In this document: positions 30,346 to 61,898 of the stretch, piece by piece
Position numbering within the stretch: position 1 is the stretch's first letter
Layout of the letters: each line of letters begins with the position of its first letter
IMG/VR virus record: IMGVR_UViG_3300040801_003693
Coordinates: 1 to 64,000 of that record
Source of the DNA: a virus
DNA length: 64,000 nt
Direction: 5' to 3' (one strand)
Made by a program: the position numbers and the translations under genes
The notes under the pieces: generated by a model
Database searches by the model: none
The model's input: only the letters and a program-made list of their open reading frames with translations
What the model was told of the DNA's origin: nothing

Positions 30346-30924
30346 TTACTTAACAGTTTTCTTGCGACCCGATTTAACCACAGCTTTTTCTTCCACTTCT
30401 TTACTACCCTGCTTGACTAAACCAAGTCTGCGGGCTACTGCTTCTCTTAAAGACTCTTTCTTCTGAACGTTAGCAATTTCTGCTGCTTCAGAAGTAATAT
30501 CATTAAGATCGTCCTCCATTACAATATCGTCTGGCTCTTCTACTTCTAAAAATGTAACTCTATTAATAATCACGTTCAAAGATTTGTGCCCCCTTTCTGG
30601 ATGAATCCCTTCAACAGGTCTTCCTAATTTACGACATTCAAACACTAACCCGATTAAAGGATTAGTTCCAGCATTAGCATAGTACTCTGCTACTTCTGCT
30701 TCTACAGTTTCAAAATCATCCTGAGCAATCATTACGGTACAAGTTATCCCATAATATGAGTCCCCTATATTTTTGGTTTCTACACCTGAAGAGGTACGAA
30801 CTTTTTGAGTTTGCTCTGCATCATAAATAGTTCCAGTTAAAGTAATAGAACCATCTTTTGCTTTACCAAAACTTAGAGTTTCTTTATTGTTGTGCTTGAT
30901 GCATTGGATAGATACGGTAGCCAT
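30346..30924 (-). CDS. hypothetical protein, beta-rich with basic tail
   Basis: A 192-residue protein. Residues 1-125 look beta-rich (MATVSIQCIKHNNKETLSF, DSYYGITCTVMIAQ, NVIINRVTFLEV), possibly an OB-type nucleic-acid-binding domain. An acidic linker (EEPDDIVMEDDLNDI) and a basic helical tail (REAVARRLGLVKQGSKEV, ending GRKKTVK) follow. This layout and its own terminators on both sides would suit an abundant DNA-binding protein, but I cannot name the family. Confidence 0.6.
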   Translation of the reverse strand: MATVSIQCIKHNNKETLSFGKAKDGSITLTGTIYDAEQTQKVRTSSGVETKNIGDSYYGITCTVMIAQDDFETVEAEVAEYYANAGTNPLIGLVFECRKLGRPVEGIHPERGHKSLNVIINRVTFLEVEEPDDIVMEDDLNDITSEAAEIANVQKKESLREAVARRLGLVKQGSKEVEEKAVVKSGRKKTVK

Positions 30925-34694: not shown

Positions 34695-35864
34695 TTACAA
34701 ATTGTCAAGATCAAATTCATCATCATCATCATCATCATCATCCTCTGAAGTAGAAACAGTAGTAGTAATTACTGTTGTAGTAACAGTAGATTCAGTATAA
34801 ACAGTAGTATCAAGAGTTTCCTCATCAATACTATTGAATAAATCTTCAAAAGACATTTCTTCCTCCACGGGAGAAGATTGTTCTACTACAGTTTCCTCTA
34901 ATGGTTTCTCTACAGTAGACTCAACTACAGTTTTCTCCTTAGATTCCTCAATAGCAGATTCAATTACAGTTTCCTCCTCTTGCTCACGAAGTCTTTTGTC
35001 TTCATGAAGCTTTTTCATTAGGTCTAGAAAACCTTTACTTTCAAGTGGAGATATCTTTTTTGCTTCAGAAGTTTCAACTTTCTTCCCATTAAAAGCAATC
35101 CGATCGCCACTGGTTTCAATCTCCCTTACTAATTTTTCACCTCCAGTAATAAGTTCAGCATGAAGAATGTCCCGTAGCATCAATCGCAAATCTATTCCTT
35201 CATTCTTAGAGTTTTCTTTGAATCTGTCGATCATATCTCTTATGTCTACTAAGAATTGAAACTGGATATATTTGCTGTTATTAATTAACTCACACATAAC
35301 CTCCCAAGATTTCTTTTGCAACATTCTAGATTGGTTATTTGTTAAACTGCTAGAACTCCTTCCTGCTTTTGCAGTGTAAGGTTTAACGAGTTTAGCTAAG
35401 AAACTTACAGGAATATCTATACGCCAGTTAAGCTTACGGTTTGCAAGTTCAGGCATAAATATTCCAGCATTCTCATACTGGGCAAGACAGATTTCTCCAC
35501 CCTGTTTTTCTATTCCATAACCATTGGAATGGACTAACATAGGAGTTTCAAATCCTTCTTTGTTACTTCTAGTGAAATAACCCTGAAAACCCCGATAGGT
35601 AGTAGCACCCGTTTTGTTATACAGACTTAATTGGGCACGAGAAATAGATAGGATTAAAAGCTTTCCATGCTCTCTTAGCTCTTCTTTGTCTAACACCTCC
35701 GCTTTATCGATATAATAGTTAAATAATTCCTCATGTGAAAGAGGAGTTACTTTAAGTTCAGCTTCTGCTTGAACAGAGTTATCAACCTTACTATTATTAG
35801 TAGCAGGAGTAACAGTGTTGTTATTTTTAGCAGAGTTGTTAGCGAAATAGTTGCTTAAAGACAT
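34695..35864 (-). CDS. hypothetical protein with very acidic D-rich tail; paralogue of 41220-42125
   Basis: A 389-residue protein; the ATG at 35864 (MSLSNYFANN) is the true start because the frame upstream is a terminator and hairpin leader. It shares GFxTPxL...GYGI...I-W patterns with the protein at 41220-42125. The C-terminus is a repetitive Val/Thr/Glu region, then a run of Asp ending EFDLDNL. A long acidic tail closing in a hydrophobic residue resembles the partner-binding tails of single-stranded-DNA-binding proteins, but no OB-fold is evident. Confidence 0.7.
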   Translation of the reverse strand: MSLSNYFANNSAKNNNTVTPATNNSKVDNSVQAEAELKVTPLSHEELFNYYIDKAEVLDKEELREHGKLLILSISRAQLSLYNKTGATTYRGFQGYFTRSNKEGFETPMLVHSNGYGIEKQGGEICLAQYENAGIFMPELANRKLNWRIDIPVSFLAKLVKPYTAKAGRSSSSLTNNQSRMLQKKSWEVMCELINNSKYIQFQFLVDIRDMIDRFKENSKNEGIDLRLMLRDILHAELITGGEKLVREIETSGDRIAFNGKKVETSEAKKISPLESKGFLDLMKKLHEDKRLREQEEETVIESAIEESKEKTVVESTVEKPLEETVVEQSSPVEEEMSFEDLFNSIDEETLDTTVYTESTVTTTVITTTVSTSEDDDDDDDDEFDLDNL

Positions 35865-35912
35865 TATGATTTTCCTTTTGATAAGTGTGTTAAGGATTAA
35901 CCTCACCAAAAG

Positions 35913-36000: not shown

Positions 36001-37281
36001 TTACATATTATCGAATGCATCTGGCTCTTCATTATTATCAGAACCTTTTACCTTAGAACGTACAGAAACAATTCTATCCATATAGGATATAATCTTTCTA
36101 GTAGAAATTTCCATTAAAGAATCTCCACTAAAATGTTTTTGCACAAACTTTCGGTCGAGAAAGTTGATTAAAGCTTTCTTCTGCGCCTTGTGATGAATTG
36201 CACTTATACCAAGACCTTGTGCAGCACGACGATGAATCATACATAAGATAGCCAACTGTTTAACCTCTTCAGCATTAAATCCCGAAAAGGTATAAGCCAT
36301 TAGATTTGGACACTTCTTCTCATTGAAGTTTCCACGCTCTAATAACTTGGCGATCGCACACAAGTTAAACGCACATCTGATTAATTCAAATACCTCCGTA
36401 GTTTTACATTTGTCAGTCCAGTTTTTACCAAATACTGCTTTCCATTCTTCCTCCGGCGAAGAATAATTCTCGGACTTATACTCTCCACGATACTCAGCGC
36501 TGTACATATTAAACAAGAAAGTTAATATCTCTGGGTTCATACCACCCAAAGGACCCCCCTCATACTGTCCTAACTCAGCAGCAATAAAAGCATTTGGGAA
36601 TGCTTTCAAGTATTTGGTACCGAATTTTGTTTTTAGTTCAGCGGATTGAACTGTTAACCCGTGAAGAAACAGTAAAGCAGACATCATTCCAAAGGTTAGC
36701 GGAACACCCACTAGTTTGTAGTTAGTGACTGTTTTAGAAAGATTGTCCTCCAAATCTTTGCAAGTAAAAGCAGCACCAGGAATACCTCCCCATTTGCTAC
36801 AATCAATGCTATCTTTTTGGACATCATAATCCTTACTAGCTTTCTCTAACAGTTGTGTTAGAGTGAGCCATTTTGTAGATACGCATTTCTTTGTATCTTT
36901 AGGACTTTGATAATAATCCCCAAATATTTCCCAATTCTCCGGAGAGCCGTGGATAATATGTGAAGCACGTATACCGTGGATACTTCCTTTGGGAGCTAAT
37001 CTTTCTGCTGTCTTTGTAATGAATATATCCTCTAACTCTTCATTTGAAATACACTGCATACTATTCTCAAGCATATCGTCAATTTTAAATTCAGAATGCC
37101 GCTTTAGTTCTGGTGCGGCTGATTCTTCTTCTAAATCAAACATCCATTCGTCAACAAAATTATCGATTGCTACTTGAGCATTTACCTCACCTAGAGGATT
37201 TTCTAAATGTGTAGCAAAGTTATTAATTAAGTCTTCAAAGGATTCGGAAGAGTTGTTGGAATTGTTATCGTGATTAGACAT
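36001..37281 (-). CDS. hypothetical protein with acidic C-terminal DNM tail
   Basis: A 426-residue protein. A low-complexity Asn/Ser start and an acidic N-terminal 80 residues precede an alpha-helical core (CAFNLCAIAKLLERGNF, AILCMIHRRAAQGLGISA). It ends EEPDAFDNM. The protein shares the final D-x-D-N-M signature with three neighbours. HIP1 lies inside it (36350). Unrecognised family; probably acts with the neighbouring large proteins. Confidence 0.7.
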   Translation of the reverse strand: MSNHDNNSNNSSESFEDLINNFATHLENPLGEVNAQVAIDNFVDEWMFDLEEESAAPELKRHSEFKIDDMLENSMQCISNEELEDIFITKTAERLAPKGSIHGIRASHIIHGSPENWEIFGDYYQSPKDTKKCVSTKWLTLTQLLEKASKDYDVQKDSIDCSKWGGIPGAAFTCKDLEDNLSKTVTNYKLVGVPLTFGMMSALLFLHGLTVQSAELKTKFGTKYLKAFPNAFIAAELGQYEGGPLGGMNPEILTFLFNMYSAEYRGEYKSENYSSPEEEWKAVFGKNWTDKCKTTEVFELIRCAFNLCAIAKLLERGNFNEKKCPNLMAYTFSGFNAEEVKQLAILCMIHRRAAQGLGISAIHHKAQKKALINFLDRKFVQKHFSGDSLMEISTRKIISYMDRIVSVRSKVKGSDNNEEPDAFDNM

Positions 37282-37327
37282 TGTAATTTTCCTTTTGTGT
37301 TAAATTTTATGTACGTTTAACCGTACT

Positions 37328-37446
37328 CAAAAAAAGAGGGAGACTAAACAATTAACAATTATCAATTAACAATTATCAATGTAAGAATTATTTTCCTTTA
37401 TTGTTAATTGTTTACTGTTTATTGTTAATTGTTTTATCTCCCTCTT
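37328..37446. repeat. long inverted repeat, copy A
   Basis: A 115-120 base imperfect hairpin. AACAATTAAC/ATTATCAATT units on the left pair with TTGTTAATTG units on the right, and the base is GAGGGAGA with TCTCCCTC. It lies between 37487-38785 and 36001-37281. Two similar copies lie at 38830 and 41098. Confidence 0.6.
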
Positions 37447-37486
37447 AATTGCTAGTAATAAAATTTACTAGCAATCGTTACAAAAA

Positions 37487-38785
37487 CTACATATCGTCTG
37501 GGTCGAATTGAGCTTCACCACTTGTACCTACACGATTAACGAGGGCACAACGGTTAAAGATTTTAGTAACTTTATCCACCGCACGCTCAAACAAATGCAG
37601 TTTCATTCCCTTATATTCGATAAGAGAAATACCAGTAGCAAGCGCTGCTAAACCAGAACGTATATCATCTCCCTGGTGTTGAGGAAATGATACAATACCA
37701 AAATAATTTAGCAGTCTATAAAGTTCTACTACCGCCTGGGGAGACGATGCATTACTTATCTCAAAACCTATACCTCCTGTTGAGTGATATTTAAAGTTGA
37801 TATCAAGCATTCCATCTTTGGAATACTCAATACATTCATTGAAAGTAGATTTGTTCCCATACATTTGTATAGGAGTTGCAAGGTTAGTACCCTTTTGTCT
37901 TAGTAAGTAACCAAAACTTTTACGAGTCAAACCAGACTTAAGTAACCCAACGAGCATATTACCCCACAAGTCGTGAGATTCCATGAGGAACCCAAAATAA
38001 TTTTCAGGTGTAGTTTCGTTGTCTACATTTGCGATGTAGTATCTATTACGAGGTACAAAAGCGGGATTAATTATCTCAAAAGAATTAGCATCCCAACGCA
38101 ACCAAATCAGATAACCAAAGCTTGTGATAGCAAAGATATCTGGATCTTTTGGATCTACTTTTACCGCAATGGATTTAAAGTAATCTCTCCACATTTGATA
38201 GGGAAGATTCATAATCTGAGAGCGAACCAAGTCCGCATTCGTGATTAAACTTACTTTCTTAGCAGCAATACATTCGGGAACTTTTTCAGGAAGCTCCTTA
38301 ATGATAATTACTCCTTCCTCTGCGGCTTCTTCGTAGCCATAGATTACTTGGGCATTCATACCTTCAAAGAATGCTGTCTCTGCATTTTTATCGGCATTCT
38401 CATCTAGCCAATAAAGTTTATGTTCAACCCAAGCTTCGACAATTGCTGGTGGAACTAAGTATCCTTTCTCCGCTTTGACTATTTCCATCCATCGCAGAAC
38501 AGCGTTAAGCTTAGCTATCCCTGTTTCTTCTAAAAGTTTAGGATCGCAAAACTGAGAAAAGATTTCATAGTCAATAGGAGTGTAAGACATTTCCACTCTT
38601 TCAGCCTTCATTTCTTCGGGCTGGTCTTCGTCGTATTCTACAGGTAAATCCATGAACAACCCATACCACCATGCTTCTAAAGCAGTGATGTCTATACTAC
38701 CTTCATCAAAGCGATCCATAATTGAGTCATATAGATCGACTAAAGTTTCAGCAATACCGTTAGATTGATTGTCTAAGTTAGCCAT
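37487..38785 (-). CDS. hypothetical protein with acidic DDM tail
   Basis: A 432-residue protein; I chose ATG 38785 (MANLDNQS) with GGAGAAACAC upstream rather than the ATG four codons earlier. It has an acidic N-terminal half (ERVEMSYTPIDYEIFSQ), a beta-rich middle and a glycine-rich core (YHSTGGIGFEI), and ends AQFDPDDM, the same style of tail as neighbouring proteins. The function is unknown. A palindrome is in codons for the SSPQ region (37729). Confidence 0.7.
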   Translation of the reverse strand: MANLDNQSNGIAETLVDLYDSIMDRFDEGSIDITALEAWWYGLFMDLPVEYDEDQPEEMKAERVEMSYTPIDYEIFSQFCDPKLLEETGIAKLNAVLRWMEIVKAEKGYLVPPAIVEAWVEHKLYWLDENADKNAETAFFEGMNAQVIYGYEEAAEEGVIIIKELPEKVPECIAAKKVSLITNADLVRSQIMNLPYQMWRDYFKSIAVKVDPKDPDIFAITSFGYLIWLRWDANSFEIINPAFVPRNRYYIANVDNETTPENYFGFLMESHDLWGNMLVGLLKSGLTRKSFGYLLRQKGTNLATPIQMYGNKSTFNECIEYSKDGMLDINFKYHSTGGIGFEISNASSPQAVVELYRLLNYFGIVSFPQHQGDDIRSGLAALATGISLIEYKGMKLHLFERAVDKVTKIFNRCALVNRVGTSGEAQFDPDDM

Positions 38786-38829
38786 GTGTTTCTCCAATAT
38801 ATTTGTTTATGTGCGGTTTAATGCACTCA

Positions 38830-38943
38830 GAAAAAAAGGGGGTAATCAATTAACAATAACCAGTAAACAATTAACAATGAAGAAAAATTTTTCTTGCATT
38901 GTTTATTGTTCATTGATAATTGTTAATTGGTTTGTCCCCCTTT
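38830..38943. repeat. long inverted repeat, copy B
   Basis: The base AAAAAGGGGG pairs with CCCCCTTT; the arms carry CAATTAACAAT and ATTGTTAATTG. A block CAGTAAACAATTAACAATGA is identical to copy C. It lies between 38966-41050 and 37487-38785 and would act as a terminator. Confidence 0.65.
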
Positions 38944-38965
38944 ATAACTAACGCGCTCACTATCT

Positions 38966-41050
38966 TTATTTCAATCTAACTGTTGCTTGTTCTGCTACAG
39001 TATGACTGGTGTTAGGATATAGTTTGCGGAATAATCTTGGTACGCTTTTGATACACTCTAAATTCTTAGGATTTTTCACCCAAGACATTAGTGCATCAAT
39101 ACTCAAGAAGTTACAAAGATCGCCGTCGTCATCTCCGTTGTTACCTCCGTACCACTCGATTGCAGGCACCGTCAGACAAGCTTTAGCAACTAACTGTTTA
39201 TCCCTAACGATGTCAGGAAACTCGCAGTATTCTGTTGCAGGACCAACTATTTTAACTACTGCAAATAAATAGCTGGGATTTGGGTTACGCCATACTAATA
39301 GACGCTTACCTTGAAGCTTGCCAGCCCAAGGATCGTTGGAAGCAAGATAAACCTCACCTTCAGTTACCCAACTGGCTTCAATACCACGAACCTTCATCGT
39401 GTATACCCGCTTACCACTCTTAGTAGCGTTCTTTAGCGGAGTGTTTCTCCCTTCCCCAAACTCGTCGTCTCCTACTACGCTCTGCTTGCAACAGCTAACG
39501 TAAATGTTCAACAACTGGTCTCGGGTAGAAGTCCAGTCTTTTGGACGGTCATCAGGATGTACACCATAATGTCTTATGATATCCACAATACACTTAGCAA
39601 CTAAATTTACACCTCCTTCGGGAGTTAATCCCATGATTTTTGCTAACTCAGTAGAAACCCAAACATCATAACCACCCCCATGAGTAATTACTAAATTGTT
39701 TGGTGCAGCTTTTAAAATACTGCTAATAGAAGACGCATCCTCAAATTCAACGTAGTTTTTATCAGTCCAATAAGTAGCTCCCTTGGGAGTTTTCTCATAG
39801 GCAACGTCGAGAAGAATTGACATCTCCCTTTCGTTCTGATAGCCTGTAGCTTTTAAAGCCAAGCCTAAATCGTTATTGATATTATGGATGGACTGCAAAC
39901 CTTCCCAATAAATCTTACCGGAACCGTTAGAAGAACGGTTTTCCTCAGTCAAAGACAGTTCAGTTGTAGTATGATGCATACCAAAGATTGCGTCTCCGGT
40001 AATAAACATATAGTTTCCACAAAACGAAACGTTCTGTTTCCCCTCATACTGCTTTTTAAGAACAGTAATAAATTCGTCACGGAAGTAACGAACTCCTACA
40101 ACTTTACGAGTTGAAGCGTCAATGAACTGATTAATTTCTCCGATTTGCTTATTGGTAGGAAATGAAGTAATACCAGATGCTCCTTCTACATCTACTTCAC
40201 GAATCTTCATTACCGAACTTTCTCCAGTCATGCAGTACTTAGTGGAAGCCCAAAGCTGTTTAGAAATTTGAGAACCTTTGATTCCCTCCGAACCAACAGC
40301 AACTTTTACGTGGGGTATACGTACAGCAGTTTCGTTCAGAATATTTTGAACGTTTGTAAAATGTTCCCCGATAGATTCGTAGAGTACGAACCCACCATAA
40401 TCCATTAAATCCTCCAAGTTTTTACAAATTGGATTGGGAACAAAACACATTTTGGCAGCTTCACCCGCAACTTTTTGGTTATTGCAGTTACGTGTAATAT
40501 GCTTACCAATGACGCGCAATCTTAACTGACCGCTGGAACTACCCTTCTCAAAATCTAAATCAGTATATTTTATTTGTGGCAACGCTGTAATTAGGAATTC
40601 AAAATCTTCTCCTTTACTATATTGAGCGGCGTTAACAAATGTTCCCGTACCCAATAAGTCTTCTTGAAATATTTTGTCCCCTGGCTTTAATACGTCACCA
40701 ACACGTACCAAATACTTGATACGTGAGCGAACTGCTTTAAGTCTTTCATCCCACTCCATCTTCGGATCTAAATTCCAAACAGAAAGTTGAAACTTAAGAT
40801 TTGCCTCGATTTCATGAAATTCAGTACCAGCAAAGTACACTGACCCAGATACTCCAGGATTTAAAATCGCTTGCAGGTTATAAGAAATAACTGTGCTTCT
40901 ATGTGCCCCCTTCTGACACACAGTCTCTTCTTCAGACTCAAATACTATTGGTGCTTCAACCCCAATGGTACTTTGTGTTGCGGATAATCTGTTGAGACCA
41001 TCTGCTAATTGAGCAGCGGATAAAGAAGCGATTTGTTTGATGTAGCTCAT
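38966..41050 (-). CDS. candidate two-barrel RNA polymerase (RDR/QDE-1-like)
   Basis: A 694-residue protein. Near the C-terminus LLVWRNPNPSYLFAVVK (about 584-600) is followed by GGNNGDDDGDLCNF with D640-x-D642-G-D644. This order, R-N-P then glycine-preceded DxDGDL, matches the catalytic barrel of RNA-dependent and two-barrel RNA polymerases (QDE-1, YonO type). Upstream, YLVRVGDVLKPGDKI (113-127) and VGSEGIKGSQI (252-262) recall RNA polymerase beta-like barrel motifs. If right, this is a compact phage transcriptase or primase-like polymerase. The similarity is by motif only and unproven. The acidic-tail genes are its neighbours. Confidence 0.45.
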   Translation of the reverse strand: MSYIKQIASLSAAQLADGLNRLSATQSTIGVEAPIVFESEEETVCQKGAHRSTVISYNLQAILNPGVSGSVYFAGTEFHEIEANLKFQLSVWNLDPKMEWDERLKAVRSRIKYLVRVGDVLKPGDKIFQEDLLGTGTFVNAAQYSKGEDFEFLITALPQIKYTDLDFEKGSSSGQLRLRVIGKHITRNCNNQKVAGEAAKMCFVPNPICKNLEDLMDYGGFVLYESIGEHFTNVQNILNETAVRIPHVKVAVGSEGIKGSQISKQLWASTKYCMTGESSVMKIREVDVEGASGITSFPTNKQIGEINQFIDASTRKVVGVRYFRDEFITVLKKQYEGKQNVSFCGNYMFITGDAIFGMHHTTTELSLTEENRSSNGSGKIYWEGLQSIHNINNDLGLALKATGYQNEREMSILLDVAYEKTPKGATYWTDKNYVEFEDASSISSILKAAPNNLVITHGGGYDVWVSTELAKIMGLTPEGGVNLVAKCIVDIIRHYGVHPDDRPKDWTSTRDQLLNIYVSCCKQSVVGDDEFGEGRNTPLKNATKSGKRVYTMKVRGIEASWVTEGEVYLASNDPWAGKLQGKRLLVWRNPNPSYLFAVVKIVGPATEYCEFPDIVRDKQLVAKACLTVPAIEWYGGNNGDDDGDLCNFLSIDALMSWVKNPKNLECIKSVPRLFRKLYPNTSHTVAEQATVRLK

Positions 41051-41097
41051 GTAATTTTCCTTTTTATGAATTCCGGATTTGTTCCGGTATGACTCAA

Positions 41098-41217
41098 TAA
41101 AAAGGGGGATTAGTCAATTAACAATGACCAGTAAACAATTAACAATGAAGAATAATAGTTCTTACATTGTTTATTGTTAATTGATAATTGTTAATTGTTT
41201 ATCTTCCCCCTTCTAAA
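41098..41217. repeat. long inverted repeat, copy C
   Basis: The third copy: AAAAAGGGGGAT base, arms with CAATTAACAATGACC and ATTGTTAATTGATAATTG. It lies in the spacer between 41220-42125 and the polymerase-like gene. It is near-identical to copy B over about 35 bases. Confidence 0.65.
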
Positions 41218-41219
41218 AA

Positions 41220-42125
41220 TTACATATTATCTAAATCACTTTCTTCCTCCGTTAATTCATTAAATAAAGACTGTATCTCTGCATCAATATATTCTATTTT
41301 TATATTTGATTCAAAGTTATTTAAATCAAGTTCTCTTGAAGATTCAATTACAGTTTCTTCTTCCTCTATTTCTAATCTCCTTTTTAGATGGTCTGTAACT
41401 TTTACTTTATTGACATAATCATTTGATTCTTCTACAACTCTTCCTTTCATTCTGTCCATAACAGAGCTAGGTCTATCTACCTTATGGATATAATCATCCC
41501 CCGGAGAGACAAGCTTTATTGCATATATCTCTGGTTTAGATATAAATACAGTAAATGCTTGGGTTGTTTTACCGTTTGCTAGTGGAATAGTTTTTAGTTC
41601 TCCTACACCTTTTGAAGAATCCGCAGATTTTACAACCATCATTTGAATCTGTAACTTCTTACGAGCAGTTACATACTCGTAAAATTTACGCCACAGATTT
41701 CCTTCTCCTTGAACGGTAGTTTTTTCTATGCCTAACATTTCTCTAATTAGAGGGGCAGAAAGATTAAACTTCCAGTTAATTGGAATCCCATGTAGCTCAG
41801 AATTATGGGATTCTAAGTTTCTAGAGATATCATCAAATTCTGTTAGTTCAATTTTTCCTTCTGAGTTGGGTTGTATTCCCCATCCTCTCCAAGAAGTTAG
41901 GAATGGAGTTTGAATTCCCGCTTTTCCTGATTTAGTTATAAACCCATTGTTTACAGTAACGGTTGTCCCACCAGTACTAGACGACTTTTGCTCCGGTCCT
42001 GATAATGATAAGGTCAGTACAAATCCGTTCTCTTTCACCCAGGAGCGATCGCACTCTTGTGTAAGGTCAACTAAGTTGTTAAAAATTTCTTGTAAAGACC
42101 ATTTACCGTTCTTTGAAATAGCCAT
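41220..42125 (-). CDS. hypothetical protein, paralogue of 34695-35864, DNM tail
   Basis: A 301-residue protein starting MAISKNGKW at ATG 42125, just inside a hairpin leader (TTATTTG/CAAATAA at 42142-42167). KAGIQTPFLTSWRGWGIQP and IPINWKFNL match the equivalent positions of 34695-35864. It ends EEESDLDNM. HIP1 lies at 42045-42052 within its first codons. The paired paralogues bracket the polymerase-like gene. Confidence 0.7.
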   Translation of the reverse strand: MAISKNGKWSLQEIFNNLVDLTQECDRSWVKENGFVLTLSLSGPEQKSSSTGGTTVTVNNGFITKSGKAGIQTPFLTSWRGWGIQPNSEGKIELTEFDDISRNLESHNSELHGIPINWKFNLSAPLIREMLGIEKTTVQGEGNLWRKFYEYVTARKKLQIQMMVVKSADSSKGVGELKTIPLANGKTTQAFTVFISKPEIYAIKLVSPGDDYIHKVDRPSSVMDRMKGRVVEESNDYVNKVKVTDHLKRRLEIEEEETVIESSRELDLNNFESNIKIEYIDAEIQSLFNELTEEESDLDNM

Positions 42126-42465
42126 AGTATATCCCTCTTTTTTATTTGCTCTAGACTTGTCAAATAAAAAGGGAACGGATTTTATGTTTGTCTTCATAAT
42201 AAAAACTATCTGGGTAGCAGCGTTATCTGTCGCTGTATTAATAAGTAATTTATTTGTTAGTCTTTTATACTTGTTTTTTGTAACAAAGAACAACTAGCAA
42301 TATTACTTAAATATTTTTATTATTTACTCAGATAATTTTATTCCTGTGTATGTATACTTAAGTATGTATACTTTTTATGTATTTTAAACTTCAATATTTA
42401 AGTAGGGGTATAGAATACTTATGGAACGAATTATTTTATACCTCACTCACATTATATTAAATTTT
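42126..42465. promoter_or_regulatory. 340-base intergenic region with operator-like repeat
   Basis: A gap between two minus-strand genes. It holds the leader hairpin of 41220-42125. It also has a direct repeat GTATGTATAC twice separated by TTAA (42348-42371), centred on the palindrome ATACTTAAGTAT, which suits an operator. No coding frame of note is seen. Confidence 0.4.
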
Positions 42466-42978: not shown

Positions 42979-43464
42979 TTAGATATCTAAATATTTTTCA
43001 ATTTGATAATCTTTTTTTAAACAATATTCATTTTTCATCACATCTTGAATTAGTTCTGACATTAAATAAATATTATTCTGATTGCTGAATGCTTGAGCTT
43101 CTTCTAACCACAAACTTTTCTTATAATTACTCTCAATAAAAGGAGTTATTTCTTGCGAAGAAAAAGTTATCTTTTTGTTGTTTCTTAAGAGAAAGTATTG
43201 GAATGCATGAATTAATTCATGCAGAAAAGTTGAGTATGAAGGTCTACGATATAAAAATATCGTCCCAATATAGTCCTCAAACTTTTCCCAGTTTTGAATA
43301 AACTTACCGTTTAAGTTATTTTTAATATAACTAGTATTAATTTTTATTCTAAACTGATAATTTGTTAAATAATAAATATCAGCTAGCAAGTTTATCTCAT
43401 CCTTATTTAAACATCTACAATCCAAAGAAATATGTACAAAATCTAAAGAATGTTCGTTAGCCAT
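42979..43464 (-). CDS. HExxH zincin-like protein, copy 1
   Basis: A 161-residue protein with HELIHAFQYFLL in mid-sequence and, downstream, LWLEEAQAFSNQN supplying a likely third ligand Glu. The pattern is that of minimal zinc metallopeptidase domains. Similar proteins lie at 45049 and 51226. There is no signal peptide, so any action would be intracellular. The leader hairpin is CTTTTGTA/TACAAAAG (43473-43495). Confidence 0.65.
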   Translation of the reverse strand: MANEHSLDFVHISLDCRCLNKDEINLLADIYYLTNYQFRIKINTSYIKNNLNGKFIQNWEKFEDYIGTIFLYRRPSYSTFLHELIHAFQYFLLRNNKKITFSSQEITPFIESNYKKSLWLEEAQAFSNQNNIYLMSELIQDVMKNEYCLKKDYQIEKYLDI

Positions 43465-45048: not shown

Positions 45049-45549
45049 TCAACAGAAACAGACCTTATTGCTTATCCTTTTTCTAAACAAATTGCTAATA
45101 TTTTTAAAGAAGTTGTCAGCTACTTCTACTACAGGTAATTCAATGTTGCCTATCAATACCATTCTCTCCCAGGAGGAAAGAACTAATCCAAGAAAGCTTT
45201 TGAATAAAGCTATAACATAATCTATATTATGTTCGTTGCTATATGCTTGAGCTTCTATTTCCCAATTACGTTTGTTGTAGTAGTTTTTAATCTCCTTGGT
45301 TATTTTTCCTTTGATGTTTAATTCTATACCCAGATTTTTATCTAAGTAATCTTGAAGTGCGTGTATTGCTTCATGAACAAATGTTGTCCAGGAAGTTTTC
45401 TTTTTGAGGATTATACTTTTAATTGAATGATCGTAACAGCCTTGGATTCTTTTATCTTTCATTACTATATCTTTCCACTCTACTGATACACCTATTTTGC
45501 GTACTAGTTTTAGCAAGGTATTTAGTTTTGTTTTAGGTAAATTTTTCAT
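45049..45549 (-). CDS. HExxH zincin-like protein, copy 2
   Basis: A 166-residue protein starting MKNLPKTKLN at 45549; the longer frame would cross a leader hairpin. FVHEAIHALQDYLD and WEIEAQAYSNEHN match the HExxH plus Glu layout of copy 1 (42979), including the AQAxSN pattern. Lysine-rich N-terminus. The leader hairpin is identical to that of 42466-42915. Confidence 0.65.
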   Translation of the reverse strand: MKNLPKTKLNTLLKLVRKIGVSVEWKDIVMKDKRIQGCYDHSIKSIILKKKTSWTTFVHEAIHALQDYLDKNLGIELNIKGKITKEIKNYYNKRNWEIEAQAYSNEHNIDYVIALFKSFLGLVLSSWERMVLIGNIELPVVEVADNFFKNISNLFRKRISNKVCFC

Positions 45550-45739
45550 TGTCTTTTCCTTTGTATTATTTGTACAAAGAAAAAGGGAGAAGTTTACTGG
45601 AGAGAATATCTTCCTAGTAAACTTCGGAGGAAACATATCTTAATAATTTAGAAAGAAATACCTTTGGGTTGAACGATTTACTTATAGAGAGTATTTATGT
45701 TAAGTTGGTAGGAAATAAAATATTATCTAAATAAGGATC

Positions 45740-45944: not shown

Positions 45945-46367
45945 TTACATTAAACAAGCTTGAACTGAACCTAGAATAGCCGTTAGTTTTTTAGATTCTT
46001 GAGTTGTACCTTGACGACACTTCTCAAATAAATCTTGAAATGAAACTGTGTTTAGTAATTCAAAAGAATAACCAGTAACAGAAACTAACATAGACTCTTC
46101 TACGTTCTTTTTCAACAAGTCAATCCAAGCCACATTTTCAGAATGCAATTCGTAGTAGTCTACAGGTTCTAATGAAGAGACTAAATAATCTACTGTAGCA
46201 GACCAAGTTGCGGACATATCACTAATGCTGAAGATTAAATTATCTCCATCCCAACGGAATGAAGATACTTCAATCGGCAATGACATATCTACTTTTATAG
46301 GTAGTCCTTCTACCATTACAGTAGTAGACAAACTATTTGCAGGATTAACAAATACTAAATCAAACAT
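45945..46367 (-). CDS. MFTLVF-family protein, copy 1
   Basis: A 140-residue protein. MFDLVFVNPANSLSTTVMVEG, SLPIEVSSFRWDGDNLIF and a WSATVDYLVSSLEP helix match the proteins at 47000 and 51944-52403. A small beta-sheet domain followed by a helical part. The function is unknown. Leader hairpin at 46377-46401. Confidence 0.65.
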   Translation of the reverse strand: MFDLVFVNPANSLSTTVMVEGLPIKVDMSLPIEVSSFRWDGDNLIFSISDMSATWSATVDYLVSSLEPVDYYELHSENVAWIDLLKKNVEESMLVSVTGYSFELLNTVSFQDLFEKCRQGTTQESKKLTAILGSVQACLM

Positions 46368-46443
46368 GGATTTCTCCTTTATGAATTAAAGTTCAATAAA
46401 GAAGAAAAAGGGGGAGCGATAATACTCCCCAGCTTTCATAACC

Positions 46444-46830
46444 CTAAGCTTTATATGTCATTACTTCTATATACATATCCCTGTTTCTCTTTGAAGGGTT
46501 TGAGTTGTATGTAAAATCGTTTTGATGTATTTTGCTAGAGACAAATCCTAACTTCTCATACACACTCTTTCTATAATTCTCTCCTCCATCCAGACTATGA
46601 GCCTGACAAAAGATTGAATCATATTGATTTTTTTTAATAAACTCATTCCACTTACTATAAAGAAACTTACTTATGTAATATCTTTCTTTCTTAGAAAGAT
46701 AAGGATTAAAGTCAAAACTATTGTTTACTTTAAATTGAACGGAATAAACGCCTTCGCTAACTAAAGTAAATGTAATCTCAACTATGTTTCCTAAAATATC
46801 TTTCTCAAAAGTAATTTGTTTTAAATGCAT
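46444..46830 (-). CDS. GNAT-like paralogue 1
   Basis: A 128-residue protein with YSVQFKVNNSFDFNPYLSKKE, then KWNEFIK, then DGGENYRKSVYEKLGF. YR-x-YEKLGF resembles the last acetyltransferase (GNAT) motif. Four further copies lie at 48905, 49499, 49933 and 50302. Catalytic residues are not confirmed. Confidence 0.5.
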   Translation of the reverse strand: MHLKQITFEKDILGNIVEITFTLVSEGVYSVQFKVNNSFDFNPYLSKKERYYISKFLYSKWNEFIKKNQYDSIFCQAHSLDGGENYRKSVYEKLGFVSSKIHQNDFTYNSNPSKRNRDMYIEVMTYKA

Positions 46831-46860
46831 TGCAACCCTTTTATTATTGACGAATAAACA

Positions 46861-46941
46861 TCAATAAAAAGGGCGACATTTGACACGGGAGGCAATTTCA
46901 GGAGGAAGATTCTTCCTGAAAGGTCTGATATCCTTTTTCAT
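46861..46941 (-). CDS. 26-residue micro-ORF after a cassette hairpin
   Basis: ATG 46941 follows a TTCTTGA/TCAAGAA leader hairpin and opens 26 codons (starts MKKDIRPFRKNLPPEIA, ends TGA 46861). The peptide is basic. Its stop lies in the terminator of the next cassette. Either a very small protein or a relic cassette. Confidence 0.4.
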   Translation of the reverse strand: MKKDIRPFRKNLPPEIASRVKCRPFY

Positions 46942-46999
46942 TTTCTTGAATTAAACATCAAGAAAAAAGGGATTGCTCCCTTAATTCATAAATAATTAT

Positions 47000-47428
47000 T
47001 TATAGTCCACCATACACACACTCAATAGTCTCTTCTTGACAAGGAGTTCTAGGTGCGAAGGCAATAGTAAGTATTGGAAAAGTCAGTACTAATACTATTA
47101 TGAGAACCTGTAATATAAAACCTTTACTCCATATAGACTCTGGAGCATAAGTTAATATTTCAGGTTCGCTTGCCCAACCCTCAGAGGGAACTGGTTGATG
47201 ATCGACCAACTCCGGCTCTAAAAGTTGTATGAGGTACTGTAAGGTGTGAACCCATGCCTCACGACTTTCTTTATTTGGGTGTTCTATTTGGACAATCAAG
47301 TCGTTATTTTCCCAATGATATTCAACAATATCAATAGGTAAAGAGACTGGAACGTCAACAGGTACACCTTCAACAAAGATTGTGTTGGATAAGGACTTTT
47401 GGCAGTTGTTAAATACTAGTGTAAACAT
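47000..47428 (-). CDS. MFTLVF-family protein, copy 2, with membrane segment
   Basis: A 142-residue protein. MFTLVFNNCQKSLSNTIFVEG, SLPIDIVEYHWENNDLIV and the WVHTLQYLIQLLEP helix match copy 1. This copy ends with an extra hydrophobic segment (FILQVLIIVLVLTFPILTIAF) predicted to span a membrane. The gain of a C-terminal anchor within a paralogous set is notable. Confidence 0.65.
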   Translation of the reverse strand: MFTLVFNNCQKSLSNTIFVEGVPVDVPVSLPIDIVEYHWENNDLIVQIEHPNKESREAWVHTLQYLIQLLEPELVDHQPVPSEGWASEPEILTYAPESIWSKGFILQVLIIVLVLTFPILTIAFAPRTPCQEETIECVYGGL

Positions 47429-47501
47429 GAGATTTTTCCCTTGTAAAGTGCAATAAAAAAGGGAAAATAATAAAGGGTGATATTAAATCACCCTCTAAAA
47501 A

Positions 47502-47864
47502 TTAATTTAGAAGAAGCTGTACCTCTTTCCAAAACTCATCATCAAACTCAGGAAGTTTGTTTTTATTGTCTTTCCATACTTGAATGAAATGATTGTATTC
47601 TTCAACAATTAAAGCTTCTGGAAATATAATATTGTAATCAAACAACATTTGAATTCCACAATAAACTTTGTTCAATTCTTCATAGTCTTTATAACCCTGT
47701 TCTAAAAGAACAACCATTATTTCTTCTTTATAGGAAGGACCTAAATTGAAGAACACATGAACCATATCATGCTTTATTGCCTGCAATACTTTTGGAACTG
47801 ATAAGTTGTGCTTTTCCAACCACACTTTATAATCAGCAACAAAATACATAGCGTCAGTAGTCAT
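47502..47864 (-). CDS. Coq4-like HDxxH-x11-E protein, copy 2
   Basis: A 120-residue helical protein. IKHDMVHVFFNLGPSYKEE keeps HDxxH-x11-E. KVWLEKHNLSVPK near the start matches the other copies (WLEKNNLDLP). Leader hairpin TTTGTT/AACAAA at 47876-47897. Confidence 0.55.
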   Translation of the reverse strand: MTTDAMYFVADYKVWLEKHNLSVPKVLQAIKHDMVHVFFNLGPSYKEEIMVVLLEQGYKDYEELNKVYCGIQMLFDYNIIFPEALIVEEYNHFIQVWKDNKNKLPEFDDEFWKEVQLLLN

Positions 47865-47931
47865 TATAATTTTCCTTTGTTAGTAGAAATCAACAAAAGA
47901 AAAAAGGGAGACATTGCTCCCCCTCATTTAT

Positions 47932-48351
47932 TTATCTAAGACTGTTTAGAAACGCTTCCCTTCTTTCTACATAAAAGTTAAACTCATTGACAAATCTCCA
48001 AGGTATTTCTACCACTTTGTCATATAAAAACAGTACGTGCTTTTTGATAAACATATACTGCTCTTGAGTTAAGACTTCCCCTTTGCTTTCTATTTTATAG
48101 AAGTCATTTACATAATCATATGAAATAACATTTTCCATGCCATAATTTTGGGCGTACTCTATAAGAGATACTACTGTCTCTCCAAAAGGAGAAACACCCA
48201 TGTCGCAAAGAGTATGCATCATATCATGATACAAAAATCTATTATCCCCAGCAGGGATTTGAAGGTTATGCTTTTCAATCCAGTCGTAGTAGCACTGCAC
48301 TACTTCCAATACATCATTGTCTTTAACTAGATTAAATTTTGCGTTAGTCAT
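47932..48351 (-). CDS. Coq4-like HDxxH-x11-E protein, copy 3
   Basis: A 139-residue helical protein with YHDMMHTLCDMGVSPFGE, keeping HDxxH-x11-E, and YYDWIEKHNLQIP at the start. Leader hairpin TTCTTGA/TCAAGAA at 48357-48379. Very like neighbouring copies in layout. Confidence 0.55.
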   Translation of the reverse strand: MTNAKFNLVKDNDVLEVVQCYYDWIEKHNLQIPAGDNRFLYHDMMHTLCDMGVSPFGETVVSLIEYAQNYGMENVISYDYVNDFYKIESKGEVLTQEQYMFIKKHVLFLYDKVVEIPWRFVNEFNFYVERREAFLNSLR

Positions 48352-48409
48352 TGCTTTTCTTGAAGATAAACATCAAGAAAAAAGGGCGACAATTAAGCCG
48401 CCTTTAAAA

Positions 48410-48829
48410 TTAAACTTTATTTAACTCTTTATGAACCTTCACCCAAAAATGTTTAGGACGATGGTGTAGATGAATCCGAATGATTGGTAAAGCATATCTA
48501 TATCTTTTGACAATAGATATGTAAACACTATTCTTCATCTCCGAGGAGGGAAAAGAAAGAATGGAGTTTAATTGTTTGTAGACCGCTTCTACAAACTCTT
48601 TACGATGAACGCTTACGCATCCATACTCAATCTCTAACTCTATAAGCCTTATAGCTACCTCTTCCTCTGGAGAAGTAGAGAACTGACTAAGAACATGATA
48701 GAAATCATGCTCTCTCAATTCTTTATTATTTGCTTTAGGCAAATCAATTTTGTTTTTACTTAACCAAACTTTATAGTCGGATACATAAGAATCAATTTGC
48801 AAGTTAGCTTGAACATCTTTAATATTCAT
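48410..48829 (-). CDS. Coq4-like HDxxH-x11-E protein, copy 4
   Basis: A 139-residue helical protein. REHDFYHVLSQFSTSPEEE keeps HDxxH-x11-E. KVWLSKNKIDLPK matches the start motif of the family. Two palindrome variants fall in its codons (48537 and 48661). The basic C-terminus (HLHHRPKHFW) is unique to this copy. Confidence 0.55.
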   Translation of the reverse strand: MNIKDVQANLQIDSYVSDYKVWLSKNKIDLPKANNKELREHDFYHVLSQFSTSPEEEVAIRLIELEIEYGCVSVHRKEFVEAVYKQLNSILSFPSSEMKNSVYISIVKRYRYALPIIRIHLHHRPKHFWVKVHKELNKV

Positions 48830-48904
48830 TATTGTTTTCCTTGAAGTTAAACATCAAGAAAAAAGGGTGATTATATGCCACCCTTTTAAAACACTCTCAC
48901 GTTT

Positions 48905-49441
48905 TTAATAAATACCGAAATCCTCCATTATTTTGTTTACTAAATTATGATACTTAACCAAATCGCTACCCATGATTTTATTTGTTAAATAGACTACGTG
49001 ACAATATTTATACTCTTCCCACAATATTTTGTAGGCTTTAGTAAGATCCTTTGTCTTTTTTAAGACTTCTGAAATCTGGTAGTCTAACTCCCATTCTTCA
49101 TATATGTCTAATGTGTCTGTATTGATATCGTACTCCGAACCAAGATGAATCATTTCCCCGCTAGAGGAATAGAAACTAAACCCGGCTTTTTTAAACATTC
49201 TAGTCCTTTCAACTTGTCTTTCATCTCCGGAGAAAGGTATACACTTTAAATAAGCAAAACTATTATTCATCTTAAAATCTTTAAAAGAATTTAATATAAA
49301 CCTAGTAATTGCTATTTTAGATTTTACCTCCCCCATTGAATATGACCCGTTTACTTGAACGCAGACTGTATAAGAGTTATCAAAGTTAGGTTTAAAACTT
49401 AACTTTACGTTATCGCCACAAACATTATTTAAATAAAGCAT
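48905..49441 (-). CDS. GNAT-like paralogue 2, extended
   Basis: A 178-residue protein. TVCVQVNGSYSMGE, ITRFILNSFKDF and RTRMFKKAGF match the GNAT-like family, with an added C-terminal helical domain of about 75 residues (LTKAYKILWEEYKY). FSGDERQ is encoded over a palindrome (49219). Leader hairpin at 49448-49469. Confidence 0.5.
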   Translation of the reverse strand: MLYLNNVCGDNVKLSFKPNFDNSYTVCVQVNGSYSMGEVKSKIAITRFILNSFKDFKMNNSFAYLKCIPFSGDERQVERTRMFKKAGFSFYSSSGEMIHLGSEYDINTDTLDIYEEWELDYQISEVLKKTKDLTKAYKILWEEYKYCHVVYLTNKIMGSDLVKYHNLVNKIMEDFGIY

Positions 49442-49498
49442 TGTTTTTTCTTGAAATAAACATCAAGAAAAAAGGGCATAACGCCCTTATTATTAAAA

Positions 49499-49861
49499 TT
49501 ATTTTTTAGCTTTTAACTTCATCTTTATCTCCTCGGAGATGAATGCAATCTGTGTAGGCTTTTTATACTTGTATCTAAAACCCATTTTGTAATAAGCTTT
49601 TTTACGATACTCACCACCACCATCATCCTTGTGAGCCTCACAAGTAATGACATCAAAGTCAACTTCATCAATAAACAATTTCCAATGAACTAATAACCAT
49701 TTGGTAATAGCAAGCTTAGTTCTTTTTGGAATGTTTGGATTGATATCCAAACTATCATTTACTGTGAAGAATACTTCCCACACTTTCTTCTCCATCCGAA
49801 GAAAAGAGAAGTAAATGTGGTTGCCATCTATAATGGTTTCGTAATCTTTTAAATCGCACAT
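49499..49861 (-). CDS. GNAT-like paralogue 3
   Basis: A 120-residue protein; true start ATG 49861 (MCDLKDYET) since the longer frame crosses the hairpin at 49871-49888. FFTVNDSLDINPNIPKRTK, KWLLVHWKLF, DDGGGEYRKKAYYKMGF. Palindromes fall at 49523 and 49790. Confidence 0.55.
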   Translation of the reverse strand: MCDLKDYETIIDGNHIYFSFLRMEKKVWEVFFTVNDSLDINPNIPKRTKLAITKWLLVHWKLFIDEVDFDVITCEAHKDDGGGEYRKKAYYKMGFRYKYKKPTQIAFISEEIKMKLKAKK

Positions 49862-49932
49862 AATCTTTTCCTTGAAAATAACTTCAAGAAAAAGAAATAA
49901 GGGTGACTTAATAATCACCTCTTATAGAAGAA

Positions 49933-50244
49933 TTATTTTCTATAACATCTAGCTATAGAATTCTCTTCTTCAAAACCTAACTTTTTATAAACCTTTTCTC
50001 TGTACTCTCCTTCTCCATCTTCTTGATAGGCATAACATCTGATAATATCAAACGTCTGATTACTTAAGAAATGTTTCCAACTAGTTAATAACCATCTTGT
50101 AATTTTAATTTTATTTAGTTTGGATATTGAAGGGTCTATATCGTAGTAACCATTTATTTTAAAATCTACAGAGTACTCTTTAGGTTGCCAGGATTCAAAA
50201 GAAAGAGATACATTTATTCCGTTGATATTAGTAGAGTAATTCAT
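49933..50244 (-). CDS. GNAT-like paralogue 4
   Basis: A 103-residue protein; true start ATG 50244 (MNYSTNING). SVDFKINGYYDIDPSISKLN, RWLLTSWKHF, EDGEGEYREKVYKKLGF. Shortest member. Leader hairpin TTCTTGA/TCAAGAA at 50250-50271. Confidence 0.55.
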   Translation of the reverse strand: MNYSTNINGINVSLSFESWQPKEYSVDFKINGYYDIDPSISKLNKIKITRWLLTSWKHFLSNQTFDIIRCYAYQEDGEGEYREKVYKKLGFEEENSIARCYRK

Positions 50245-50301
50245 TGTTTTTCTTGATATAAACATCAAGAAATAAGGGCGAAATTGTCGCCCTTATTATT
50301 A

Positions 50302-50673
50302 TTAAAATACTTCTGTATAGATATTCTCTTCTTGAGAAATGAAACTCTCAGAGAAATATCCTAGATAACCTGTTCTTAAAACAGGAATAAACCCTAATTT
50401 TTTATATGCCTTTGTTCTATATTCTTTTTCTCCATCCTCTTTGTAAGGTATACAATATACCCACTCGAAGGTGTTAGAAGTAATAAAACTTTTCCAAACA
50501 TCTAACAGCCATTTGGTTATTAGATATTTATCTTTTTTAGACAAATTAGGATCTAAGTCGTGACTTCCATTAACTTTGAAATCTGCCATGTAACTATGGT
50601 TTTCGATTCCCGTTTTGAAAGTGAACACAACTTCGTTATCGTTAACAATTGTATTAAATTGAATAGTAGCCAT
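50302..50673 (-). CDS. GNAT-like paralogue 5
   Basis: A 123-residue protein; true start ATG 50673 (MATIQFNTIV). MADFKVNGSHDLDPNLSKKD, KWLLDVWKSF, EDGEKEYRTKAYKKLGF. Its leader carries the 12-bp arms at 50680-50713 and a nearly perfect hairpin at 50726-50763 (GACACTTTGACAC arms). Confidence 0.55.
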   Translation of the reverse strand: MATIQFNTIVNDNEVVFTFKTGIENHSYMADFKVNGSHDLDPNLSKKDKYLITKWLLDVWKSFITSNTFEWVYCIPYKEDGEKEYRTKAYKKLGFIPVLRTGYLGYFSESFISQEENIYTEVF

Positions 50674-50725
50674 AAGAATTTCTTCTTTGTTAATAAACAT
50701 CAACAAAGAAGAAAAAAATAAGGGA

Positions 50726-50763
50726 GACACTTTGACACAGGGCACAGCCCGTGTCAAAGTGTC
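50726..50763. terminator. GACACTTTGACAC hairpin
   Basis: GACACTTTGACAC then GGGC pair with GCCC then GTGTCAAAGTGTC with one bulged A. A related TTTGACACGGG occurs at about 46878. It lies upstream of 50302-50673, in place of the usual terminator stem. Confidence 0.55.
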
Positions 50764-50792
50764 GGTCGTGACATTACTGCCACCCTAAAGTA

Positions 50793-51161
50793 TTAAGCTG
50801 CTAATAGCTGATTGACTTTATCGAAGAATGTATAATTAAGCTCTACAAAATCTTTTGATAAGATATTATAAAACTTAACTAAACATTGATACTGTTCTCT
50901 ACTTAACTGTTCAGTTCCCTTAGAGATTTCTGAATAGTTAATAGCAGCAGTATCGTAGTCGAAAACAAATCCTTGTTCCACCATTGCGACTATACCTTCC
51001 TCCGGATAAGACACACCCAAGTCCGTTAGGACATGAACGTAATCGTGCATCCGAAAGAATTCACAGTCTGGTAAATCCAGATTATTCTTTTCCAACCACT
51101 TCAAATAAGCATCAACATAACCCTGTGGGTCGTTAGCTAAATGAAATTTAGTATTTAACAT
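50793..51161 (-). CDS. Coq4-like HDxxH-x11-E protein, copy 5
   Basis: A 122-residue helical protein: MHDYVHVLTDLGVSYPEE keeps HDxxH-x11-E, with YLKWLEKNNLDLPD at the start. The codons for YPEE overlie a palindrome (50998). Leader hairpin at 51164-51186. Confidence 0.55.
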   Translation of the reverse strand: MLNTKFHLANDPQGYVDAYLKWLEKNNLDLPDCEFFRMHDYVHVLTDLGVSYPEEGIVAMVEQGFVFDYDTAAINYSEISKGTEQLSREQYQCLVKFYNILSKDFVELNYTFFDKVNQLLAA

Positions 51162-51225: not shown

Positions 51226-51873
51226 TTAATAATTGCATTCGCTAATATCTGGGGCTGTGCATGAATCCCAATAAACAGTATCTTCTACTGTAATATTGGG
51301 AGAAAAAGAACTAGTTTGAAGAAGGATCATAGCAACCAATCCAAAAAACCTAAACCGATTCAGATTAAATGGATATGCTCGAACAGAATTCCACGAAGTT
51401 ACCCTCGTGAAATTTGGTTGCTTGATTTGATAAACATTGTATCGACAATTAGGTTGCCTGTTACGTTGTTCTACCAAGCATTGCATTATCTGCAATACTA
51501 AATATGGATAGCTTTCTAAAGCTACAGCAGCATACTCTAATGCAGAGTATCTGTTGTCCCATATTTTCTTCAATTTTGAGATAGAAGGTTTTGCTATTCC
51601 CATTCTTTCGAGCAGGATATCAGCTTCTGCCACCGTCGCCAAACACCCGTATGCTTGAATCAAGTGAACACACTCATGCGTAAAAATCGTAATCCTTTCT
51701 TGAGGAGCGAGATTTTCGTAATCATAGATTACAATTTTTTTATAAAATGCATTATAAATTCCTGACGTTCCCTCACGCTTCCCTTCATATAGCAATTTAT
51801 GACCAAAATCATCCACGATAACTTTTGCAAAAGTTTCTTCTAATCTTTTTAATTCTTTAATTGATACGCTCAT
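51226..51873 (-). CDS. HExxH zincin-like protein, copy 3, extended
   Basis: A 215-residue protein. ITIFTHECVHLIQAYG gives HExxH, and YSALEYAAVALESYP is the downstream Glu region. A C-terminal hydrophobic stretch (FRFFGLVAMILLQTSSF) and a Cys/Asp-rich tail could be a membrane anchor, absent from copies 1 and 2. Leader with 12-bp arms at 51879-51912. Confidence 0.6.
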   Translation of the reverse strand: MSVSIKELKRLEETFAKVIVDDFGHKLLYEGKREGTSGIYNAFYKKIVIYDYENLAPQERITIFTHECVHLIQAYGCLATVAEADILLERMGIAKPSISKLKKIWDNRYSALEYAAVALESYPYLVLQIMQCLVEQRNRQPNCRYNVYQIKQPNFTRVTSWNSVRAYPFNLNRFRFFGLVAMILLQTSSFSPNITVEDTVYWDSCTAPDISECNY

Positions 51874-54926: not shown

Positions 54927-55284
54927 TTTAGAGGATTATAAAATATCCTATGAGGTGACAGTATTGCCCAACGTATTATATGCAGAATTAGTAAATGCAA
55001 AAACTCCTTTAGTGTTTGATAGTTTTTATATTCCAGAAGAGTTAAAAAATTTTGCGCTTGAATGTAGATTTATTCTTTACGACAAAGATGGAGGATGTGT
55101 AGAGTTTTCTAACAACATTACTTTGGAACAGCAAATAGTTTACACGTTAAATTTAGTTCCATTAAAGATGATACATAAATTATGTTCTTCAGTTAAAAAT
55201 CAATATTCAAAAGAATATCCTGTAATTGCGGGGTCTGATTCAATAGCAGATTCTTCTACGCTATCTTCTAATGATTCAACATAA
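54916..55284 (+). CDS. hypothetical protein overlapping the giant gene antisense
   Basis: A 122-residue protein from ATG 54916 (MNINLEDYK); ATG 54907 is an alternative and the further GTG 54886 is unlikely. The body is beta-rich (FILYDKDGGCVEFSN). The last 28 residues (SKEYPVIAGSDSIADSS) are Ser-rich and lie over the minus-strand giant gene: the two stops overlap tail to tail by 85 bases. Confidence 0.6.
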   Translation: MNINLEDYKISYEVTVLPNVLYAELVNAKTPLVFDSFYIPEELKNFALECRFILYDKDGGCVEFSNNITLEQQIVYTLNLVPLKMIHKLCSSVKNQYSKEYPVIAGSDSIADSSTLSSNDST

Positions 55285-61760: not shown

Positions 61761-61898
61761 ATTAGCACCGAGTATTCTAACATCTCTTAGTACTTCTTTT
61801 GCATCTTCAAAGTAAAATGATGCAGCATTACTAGTTGCAGTACCTGTAGTAAAAGAAGGTTTAGACTGAACCTTTTCTATTAAGTTACTTGCTACTCA
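61761..61898 (-). other. in-frame UGA joining two halves of the giant gene
   Basis: The upstream frame ends in UGA (61896-61898). The same frame is open for the next 45 codons, reading VASNLIEKVQSKPSFTTG, continuing FYFEDAKEVLRDVRILGAN, and running into the ATG at 61760. The peptide is protein-like and no canonical start lies between. The two genes are therefore one reading frame with a single stop, either a readthrough site, a nonsense change or a decayed junction. Confidence 0.7.

Follow-up and report, generated by a model that had tools for sequence, protein, structure and literature searches.

The protein of 694 amino acids encoded on the minus strand between positions 38966 and 41050 of the window (the whole stretch of 64,000 nucleotides analysed here, part of a virus record of 135,938 bases) is, as judged from profile and alignment comparisons, a homologue of the phage protein family phrog_30979. 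We consider it very probable that it serves as catalytic subunit in a two-barrel polymerase, most likely a non-virion DNA-dependent RNA polymerase (RNAP) split into three subunits; its polymerase activity, its RNA product, the identity of the two other subunits, the role of the acidic tails, the non-virion status and the time of action are features that we infer. The comparisons of sequences and models presented below suggest that phrog_30979 forms a divergent branch of the two-barrel RNAPs, whose representative in the window is split in another way than the known phage RNAPs. No description of a polymerase branch of this type was found in the literature searched, and our analysis proposes a function for a previously uncharacterised PHROG.

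Relationship of the 694-residue protein to phrog_30979

The initial annotation had likened this protein to RDR-type two-barrel polymerases on the basis of four short motifs. All four are present in the ATG-started open reading frame and follow each other in the order quoted: VRVGDVLKPGDK, which begins at residue 115, VGSEGIKG (residues 252-259; 40274..40297, minus strand), LLVWRNPNPS and NNGDDDGDL. The last of them contains DDDGD (residues 640-644; 39119..39133, minus strand), the putative catalytic metal-binding motif of the barrel DPBB-A, which is embedded in the pattern W-x3-N-x-GDxDGD; the RNP triplet within LLVWRNPNPS (residues 588-590; 39281..39289, minus strand) is the counterpart of an RxP motif located upstream of DxDGD. 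Two lysines in the arrangement K193-x6-K200 (40451..40474, minus strand) are the putative catalytic lysines of the barrel DPBB-B, and VGSEGIKG corresponds to the family motif E-x2-K-G. The protein would thus carry both active-site barrels, and with them the catalytic core of the polymerase, on one chain.

Used alone as a query, the 694-residue protein found no match in Pfam (E up to 1), in PHROGs, among PDB sequences or by tblastn of phage genomes, and searches of IMG/VR with peptide patterns and of other records were likewise without a match. A scan of the Ma-LMM01 genome for DxDGD led to gp064, a hypothetical protein of 1673 amino acids that matches a protein of 3410 amino acids from the Microcoleus phage My-WqHQDG (E 2e-14). 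Further members were recovered from IMG/VR with degenerate patterns around N[NE]GDxDGD (L047/L144, L119/L143, L121/L145, L122/L127, L128, L129 and L142), while a pattern scan of 85,000 genomes yielded chance matches only. All members tested match one and the same PHROG, phrog_30979, which is annotated as being of "unknown function" and comprises Ma-LMM01 gp064 together with single-chain proteins of 1400-3400 amino acids from at least seven phage lineages.

A hidden Markov model (HMM) of DPBB-A built without the 694-residue protein detected this protein with E=4.9e-8 (best reversed decoy, 0.25), and a second DPBB-A model, from a set of nine sequences, did so at E 3.7e-6. Models of the DPBB-B segment failed to single it out (E 1.7 and 8.4). 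When the family was aligned without it, the protein matched 18 of the 19 family-invariant columns, compared with 4-9 columns for 12 shuffled versions of its own sequence and 2-8 for 13 open reading frames of 500-1000 amino acids from the same phage; the set of motifs therefore exceeds what chance provides. In the numbering of the window protein, the matched residues are K193, K200, E255, K258, G259, A268, E364, E383 and K553 and, in the C-terminal part, R588, P590, W633, N637, G639, D640, D642, G643 and D644. K-x6-K, E-x2-KG, K553, RxP and W-x3-N-x-GDxDGD are kept in 10/10 sequences of an alignment that was made from matching sub-ranges rather than from whole chains. The conservation of lysines and aspartates proposed earlier as a check thus bears out the assignment, with D640, D642, D644, K193, K200 and K258 invariant throughout these ten sequences.

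At 15-19% identity, the 694-residue protein is highly divergent from its relatives, and the pieces of its gene cluster are permuted and bounded by repeated hairpins (see below), as might be expected if a gp064-type gene had decayed or been repurposed and had left a catalytically inactive remnant. We regard such a loss of function as very unlikely: the residues of catalytic type are all intact (18/19 invariants), and the three open reading frames concerned are all long and open. What sets the protein apart from the other members is the lack of the region that follows DxDGD in their single-chain architecture; because this region is absent from its chain, we call it a split variant of phrog_30979 and not an ordinary member.

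Predicted fold and active site

The AlphaFold model of the 694-residue protein (pLDDT 38) is too poor to display barrels, and the proposed likeness to a two-barrel, RDR-like polymerase draws its support from conservation and from the model of a fused homologue. For 1200 residues of this homologue (L128), AlphaFold returned a mean pLDDT of 60 and values of 70-88 for the greater part of the core. The fold comparison that had been suggested for the window protein could be carried out with this model. Foldseek placed RNAP beta chains at the head of its PDB matches (E 1.9e-4 to 1e-3, probability about 1), with low TM-scores of 0.10-0.14. In VIA-align the first match is QDE-1, with a Z of 8.4, just above background, over 360 residues (model residues 208-1200), followed by maize RDR2 (Z 8.0, 356 residues) and then by Rpb2-type chains. 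All 50 VIA entries listed are RNA polymerases, a coherent list of modest Z. Beyond its DxDGD motif (residues 857-861), the L128 model contains a helix of 33 residues (945-977) and a pair of helices around YEGLGLSGY; we interpret these elements as being laid out like a bridge helix and a trigger loop.

Profile comparisons point in the same direction for DPBB-A. The best of four hhalign comparisons of the family was that with gp96 of the Thermus phage P23-45, a validated virion RNAP of solved structure; it peaks on DPBB-A (E 0.0036, HH probability 9%) and aligns GDIAFTFRNPV...DFDGD of gp96 with Gdvi...RtPM...GDsDGD of the family; against RpoC the best register fell on NADFDGDQMAV (E 0.03). The comparisons with RpoB and with the single YonO sequence gave no catalytic-site match. 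Overall, none of these characterised polymerases (gp96, RpoC, RpoB, YonO) showed a direct significant sequence match. No PDB sequence was retrieved by hmmsearch with the profile of the family, the RdRP family profile of Pfam matched neither the 694-residue protein (E up to 1) nor gp064 (E up to 10), and no Rpb1 or Rpb2 Pfam domains were found. By eye, and without statistical support, the family pattern K-x6-K followed by ...DIILN resembles the two-lysine segment of the beta subunit (GDK...K...DIVLN), which would make K193 and K200 equivalent to beta K1065 and K1073.

On this basis, we envisage an active site in which an N-terminal, beta-like barrel of the 694-residue protein would supply K193 and K200, while the three aspartates of DDDGD, close to the RNP motif in a C-terminal, beta'-like barrel, would bind the catalytic Mg2+. 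The two barrels of this one subunit would thus bring together the lysines and the Mg-binding aspartates.

Neighbouring genes and the proposed division of the enzyme

The 694-residue chain ends about 50 residues past DDDGD, and complete fused relatives run on for about 300 residues or more beyond this point. The initial annotation had presented the protein as a compact, self-contained polymerase; this part of the claim does not hold, since everything downstream of the DxDGD barrel is missing from the chain and is apparently found in a neighbouring protein of 426 amino acids (36001..37281, minus strand; acidic tail PDAFDNM). An HMM of the region behind DPBB-A, built from nine fused homologues, placed the 426-residue protein first (E=2.8e-4), the next match being a reversed decoy (0.22), and this protein is probably the post-DPBB-A part with bridge helix and trigger loop. 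Between the two genes lies that of a 432-residue protein (37487..38785, minus strand; ATG preceded by GGAG; acidic tail FDPDDM), of which a longer, TTG-started form of 436 amino acids begins at 38797. It ranked first with an HMM of the part preceding DPBB-B (E=0.036), bears the K..NR of the family (DKVTKIFNRC) and is probably the N-terminal lobe. When all open reading frames of the 136-kb phage, together with reversed decoys, were ranked with the full-length family HMM, the 694-, 426- and 432-residue proteins took the first three places (E 2.8e-4, 0.0053 and 0.091).

The three genes are adjacent and occupy the slot of gp064 in Ma-LMM01. Counts of matching residues were 9/15 for the 426-residue protein, whose own shuffles reached 7 at most, and an uninformative 3/5 for the 432-residue protein. 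Because some longer unrelated proteins equalled the score of 9, we consider it only probable, from these sequence comparisons, that the two neighbours are the remaining subunits of the same polymerase.

One might suppose instead that the 694-residue protein is a whole minimal two-barrel enzyme to which the 426- and 432-residue neighbours are unrelated. Each gene does have its own start, ribosome-binding site and adjoining hairpin, and the homology of the proposed subunits is weak; yet the chain stops short of the part with bridge helix and trigger loop in the fused members, and the neighbours, situated in the very slot of gp064, take second and third place in the ranking by the family HMM, so that we hold this explanation to be quite improbable. 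In the favoured reading of a divided enzyme, the 432-residue protein would contribute the N-lobe and the 426-residue protein the bridge helix and the trigger loop, and the three separate gene products would have to assemble as one enzyme, made within the infected cell as in the non-virion type. The corresponding order in gp064 and other fused relatives would be N-lobe, DPBB-B, connector, DPBB-A, bridge helix and trigger loop within one chain. In the window phage, the core is transcribed first, then the N-lobe and last the bridge/trigger part; in the fused chains the N-lobe precedes the core, and the bridge/trigger part again comes last. A simple frameshift is therefore insufficient to explain the split. 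The permuted domain order and the separate start of each open reading frame speak against a frameshift or assembly artefact as its origin, and also against a translational bypass across the hairpins.

These hairpins are three near-identical elements of about 120 nucleotides: one before the 694-residue gene (41095..41216; -44 kcal/mol, z -7.9; nhmmer 8.6e-34), one between this gene and that of the 432-residue protein (38826..38950; -46 kcal/mol, z -9.3) and one between the latter and the 426-residue gene (37326..37452; -46 kcal/mol, z -10.9). Weaker copies occur elsewhere in the same phage, and the elements may be terminators or scars of rearrangement.

The polymerase had also been described as surrounded by proteins with acidic tails. 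The tails are real (SDLDNM, FDPDDM, AFDNM and FDLDNL at the ends of the 357-, 436-, 426- and 404-residue proteins), but two of their bearers, the 426- and 432-residue proteins, are probably parts of the enzyme itself. The other two, a 357-residue protein (41220..42293, minus strand; tail SDLDNM), which is a possible SSB-like partner, and a 404-residue protein (34695..35909, minus strand; tail EFDLDNL), are paralogues (phmmer E 1e-11). The short acidic C-terminal tails held in common might aid assembly or docking. Directly upstream of the polymerase gene, several relatives likewise carry a gene of unknown function with a short acidic tail end (...DIDDLLN in gp065, ...DEFADVDL in L127, two tandem copies in L142), and by analogy these genes recall phage SSBs.

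An upstream gene of this sort, whose product often has an SSB-like acidic tail as in gp065, would also suit a two-barrel polymerase that serves phage DNA replication, as a primase-like or PolD-like DNA polymerase, and not transcription. PolD is among the two-barrel folds (it does not appear among the 50 VIA entries listed, an absence that carries no weight against it), and DNA_pol_A and DnaB_C domains were not found in the 136-kb record. Since this record may be incomplete, the missing domains may reflect just that; moreover, genes annotated as DNA polymerase and primase are present in the relatives, and RNA synthesis is favoured both by the helices behind DxDGD and by the structural matches (QDE-1, RDR2, RNAP beta). 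We therefore judge a role in replication unlikely and retain transcription as the probable function.

Phage context and comparison with known polymerases

Giant proteins at the right end of the window share 24-31% identity with Ma-LMM01 gp080 over nearly the whole length, and the phage is therefore distantly related to the Ma-LMM01 group. Synteny follows the Ma-LMM01 order, with a gp054 homologue at 30.3 kb (30346-30924, minus strand), the polymerase cluster at 34.7-41 kb and homologues of gp075-gp080 at 53-64 kb. In Ma-LMM01, gp054 is among ten phage genes reported as early (PMC5780444).

Several observations concern other genes of this phage group. Small HExxH proteins are encoded on the minus strand at 42979-43464, 45049-45636 and 51226-51873 (HELIH, HEAIH and HECVH), the first two being paralogous; an HExxH motif also lies inside the polymerase chains of gp064 and of its My-WqHQDG homologue, and the gp064 domain resembles 42979-43464 in the motif only, without significance in sequence. 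The My-WqHQDG protein (WOL31509; L034:322-10554) has a NADAR domain (Pfam E 3e-20) inserted after the bridge-helix region, an insert that is absent from the close relative L047/L144. By eye, 18807-19262 (minus strand) resembles a macro (ADP-ribose-binding) domain; taken with the NADAR domain, this would hint that phages of the group deal in some way with ADP-ribose metabolism. A run of small related-looking genes for about 110-180 amino acids, several with D-G-G/E-x-E-Y-R-x-K, fills 45945-51161 (minus strand), apparently as lineage-specific expansions, and genes for a protein kinase, a PP2C phosphatase and VWA-domain proteins adjoin one another at L013:15852-18735 (G000 about 129.8-132.7 kb).

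The giant proteins at 55200-61760 and 61896-63884 (minus strand) are split homologues of gp080 (3562 amino acids), whose family conserves R..P.G, RN..L, DxDGD and the downstream region in nine phages; by sequence, the gp080-type protein is a candidate for a giant RNA polymerase of the virion, comparable to P23-45 gp96. At somewhat less than even chances, the phage would thus possess two two-barrel RNAPs: this giant virion enzyme (55200-63884, RSPP-x-G ... GDFDGD) and a uniquely split non-virion one with both barrels on one subunit, whose acidic tails, shared with the SSB-like neighbours, would act as assembly or docking tags. No T7-type RNAP (PF00940) was found in the record, in a search run without a positive control.

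The Ma-LMM01 group of Microcystis phages provides model viruses for the study of toxic blooms. Phages of this type have been described as being without any RNAP (PMC9927357, PMC5780444), and a published inference, namely that every gene class of Ma-LMM01 has host sigma-70 promoters (PMC5780444), argues against a phage enzyme. A two-barrel polymerase hidden in gp064 and its relatives would bear on these statements; if the reading with two RNAPs is true, the whole group, thought to depend on the host RNAP, would have transcription machinery of its own.

Two-barrel RNAPs are already known from phages, with YonO, crAss gp66, P23-45 and phiKZ as examples. The closest counterpart of the 694-residue protein is Ma-LMM01 gp064 (phrog_30979), which is like it in 18/19 invariant residues, in motif order and in syntenic slot but consists of one chain of 1673 amino acids with an N-terminal HExxH region, where the window phage has three genes in permuted order. 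The two-barrel RNAPs of P23-45, gp96 (virion) and gp64 (non-virion), have a like spacing from RNP to DxDGD (FRNPV stands at the place of the family RxP in gp96) and likewise carry both barrels on one chain (PMC10770324), and this pair is possibly paralleled in the window phage by a putative giant DFDGD virion protein; gp96 differs in its fusion to a tape-measure protein, and its overall sequence match to the family is not significant (DPBB-A only). QDE-1 and plant RDR2, polymerases of eukaryotic RNA interference that head the VIA-align list for the L128 model, are also single chains with DPBB-B before DPBB-A and with G-D-x-D-G-D; they show no sequence-family match, and the window enzyme differs in being phage-encoded, split and probably DNA-templated. 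YonO of SPbeta embodies the same concept of a single-chain two-barrel phage RNAP (PMC5467207), without the active-site match in hhalign. A cut directly after DPBB-A is known both from jumbo-phage RNAPs and from cyanobacterial beta' (PMC7598289). The phiKZ/AR9-type RNAPs of jumbo phages also consist of several polypeptides and are split at just this place (PMC7598289); their barrels, however, lie on different chains, whereas in the window phage, which would be a naturally occurring example of a single-chain polymerase divided among separate, reordered genes, K-x6-K and DxDGD are both found on the 694-residue chain.
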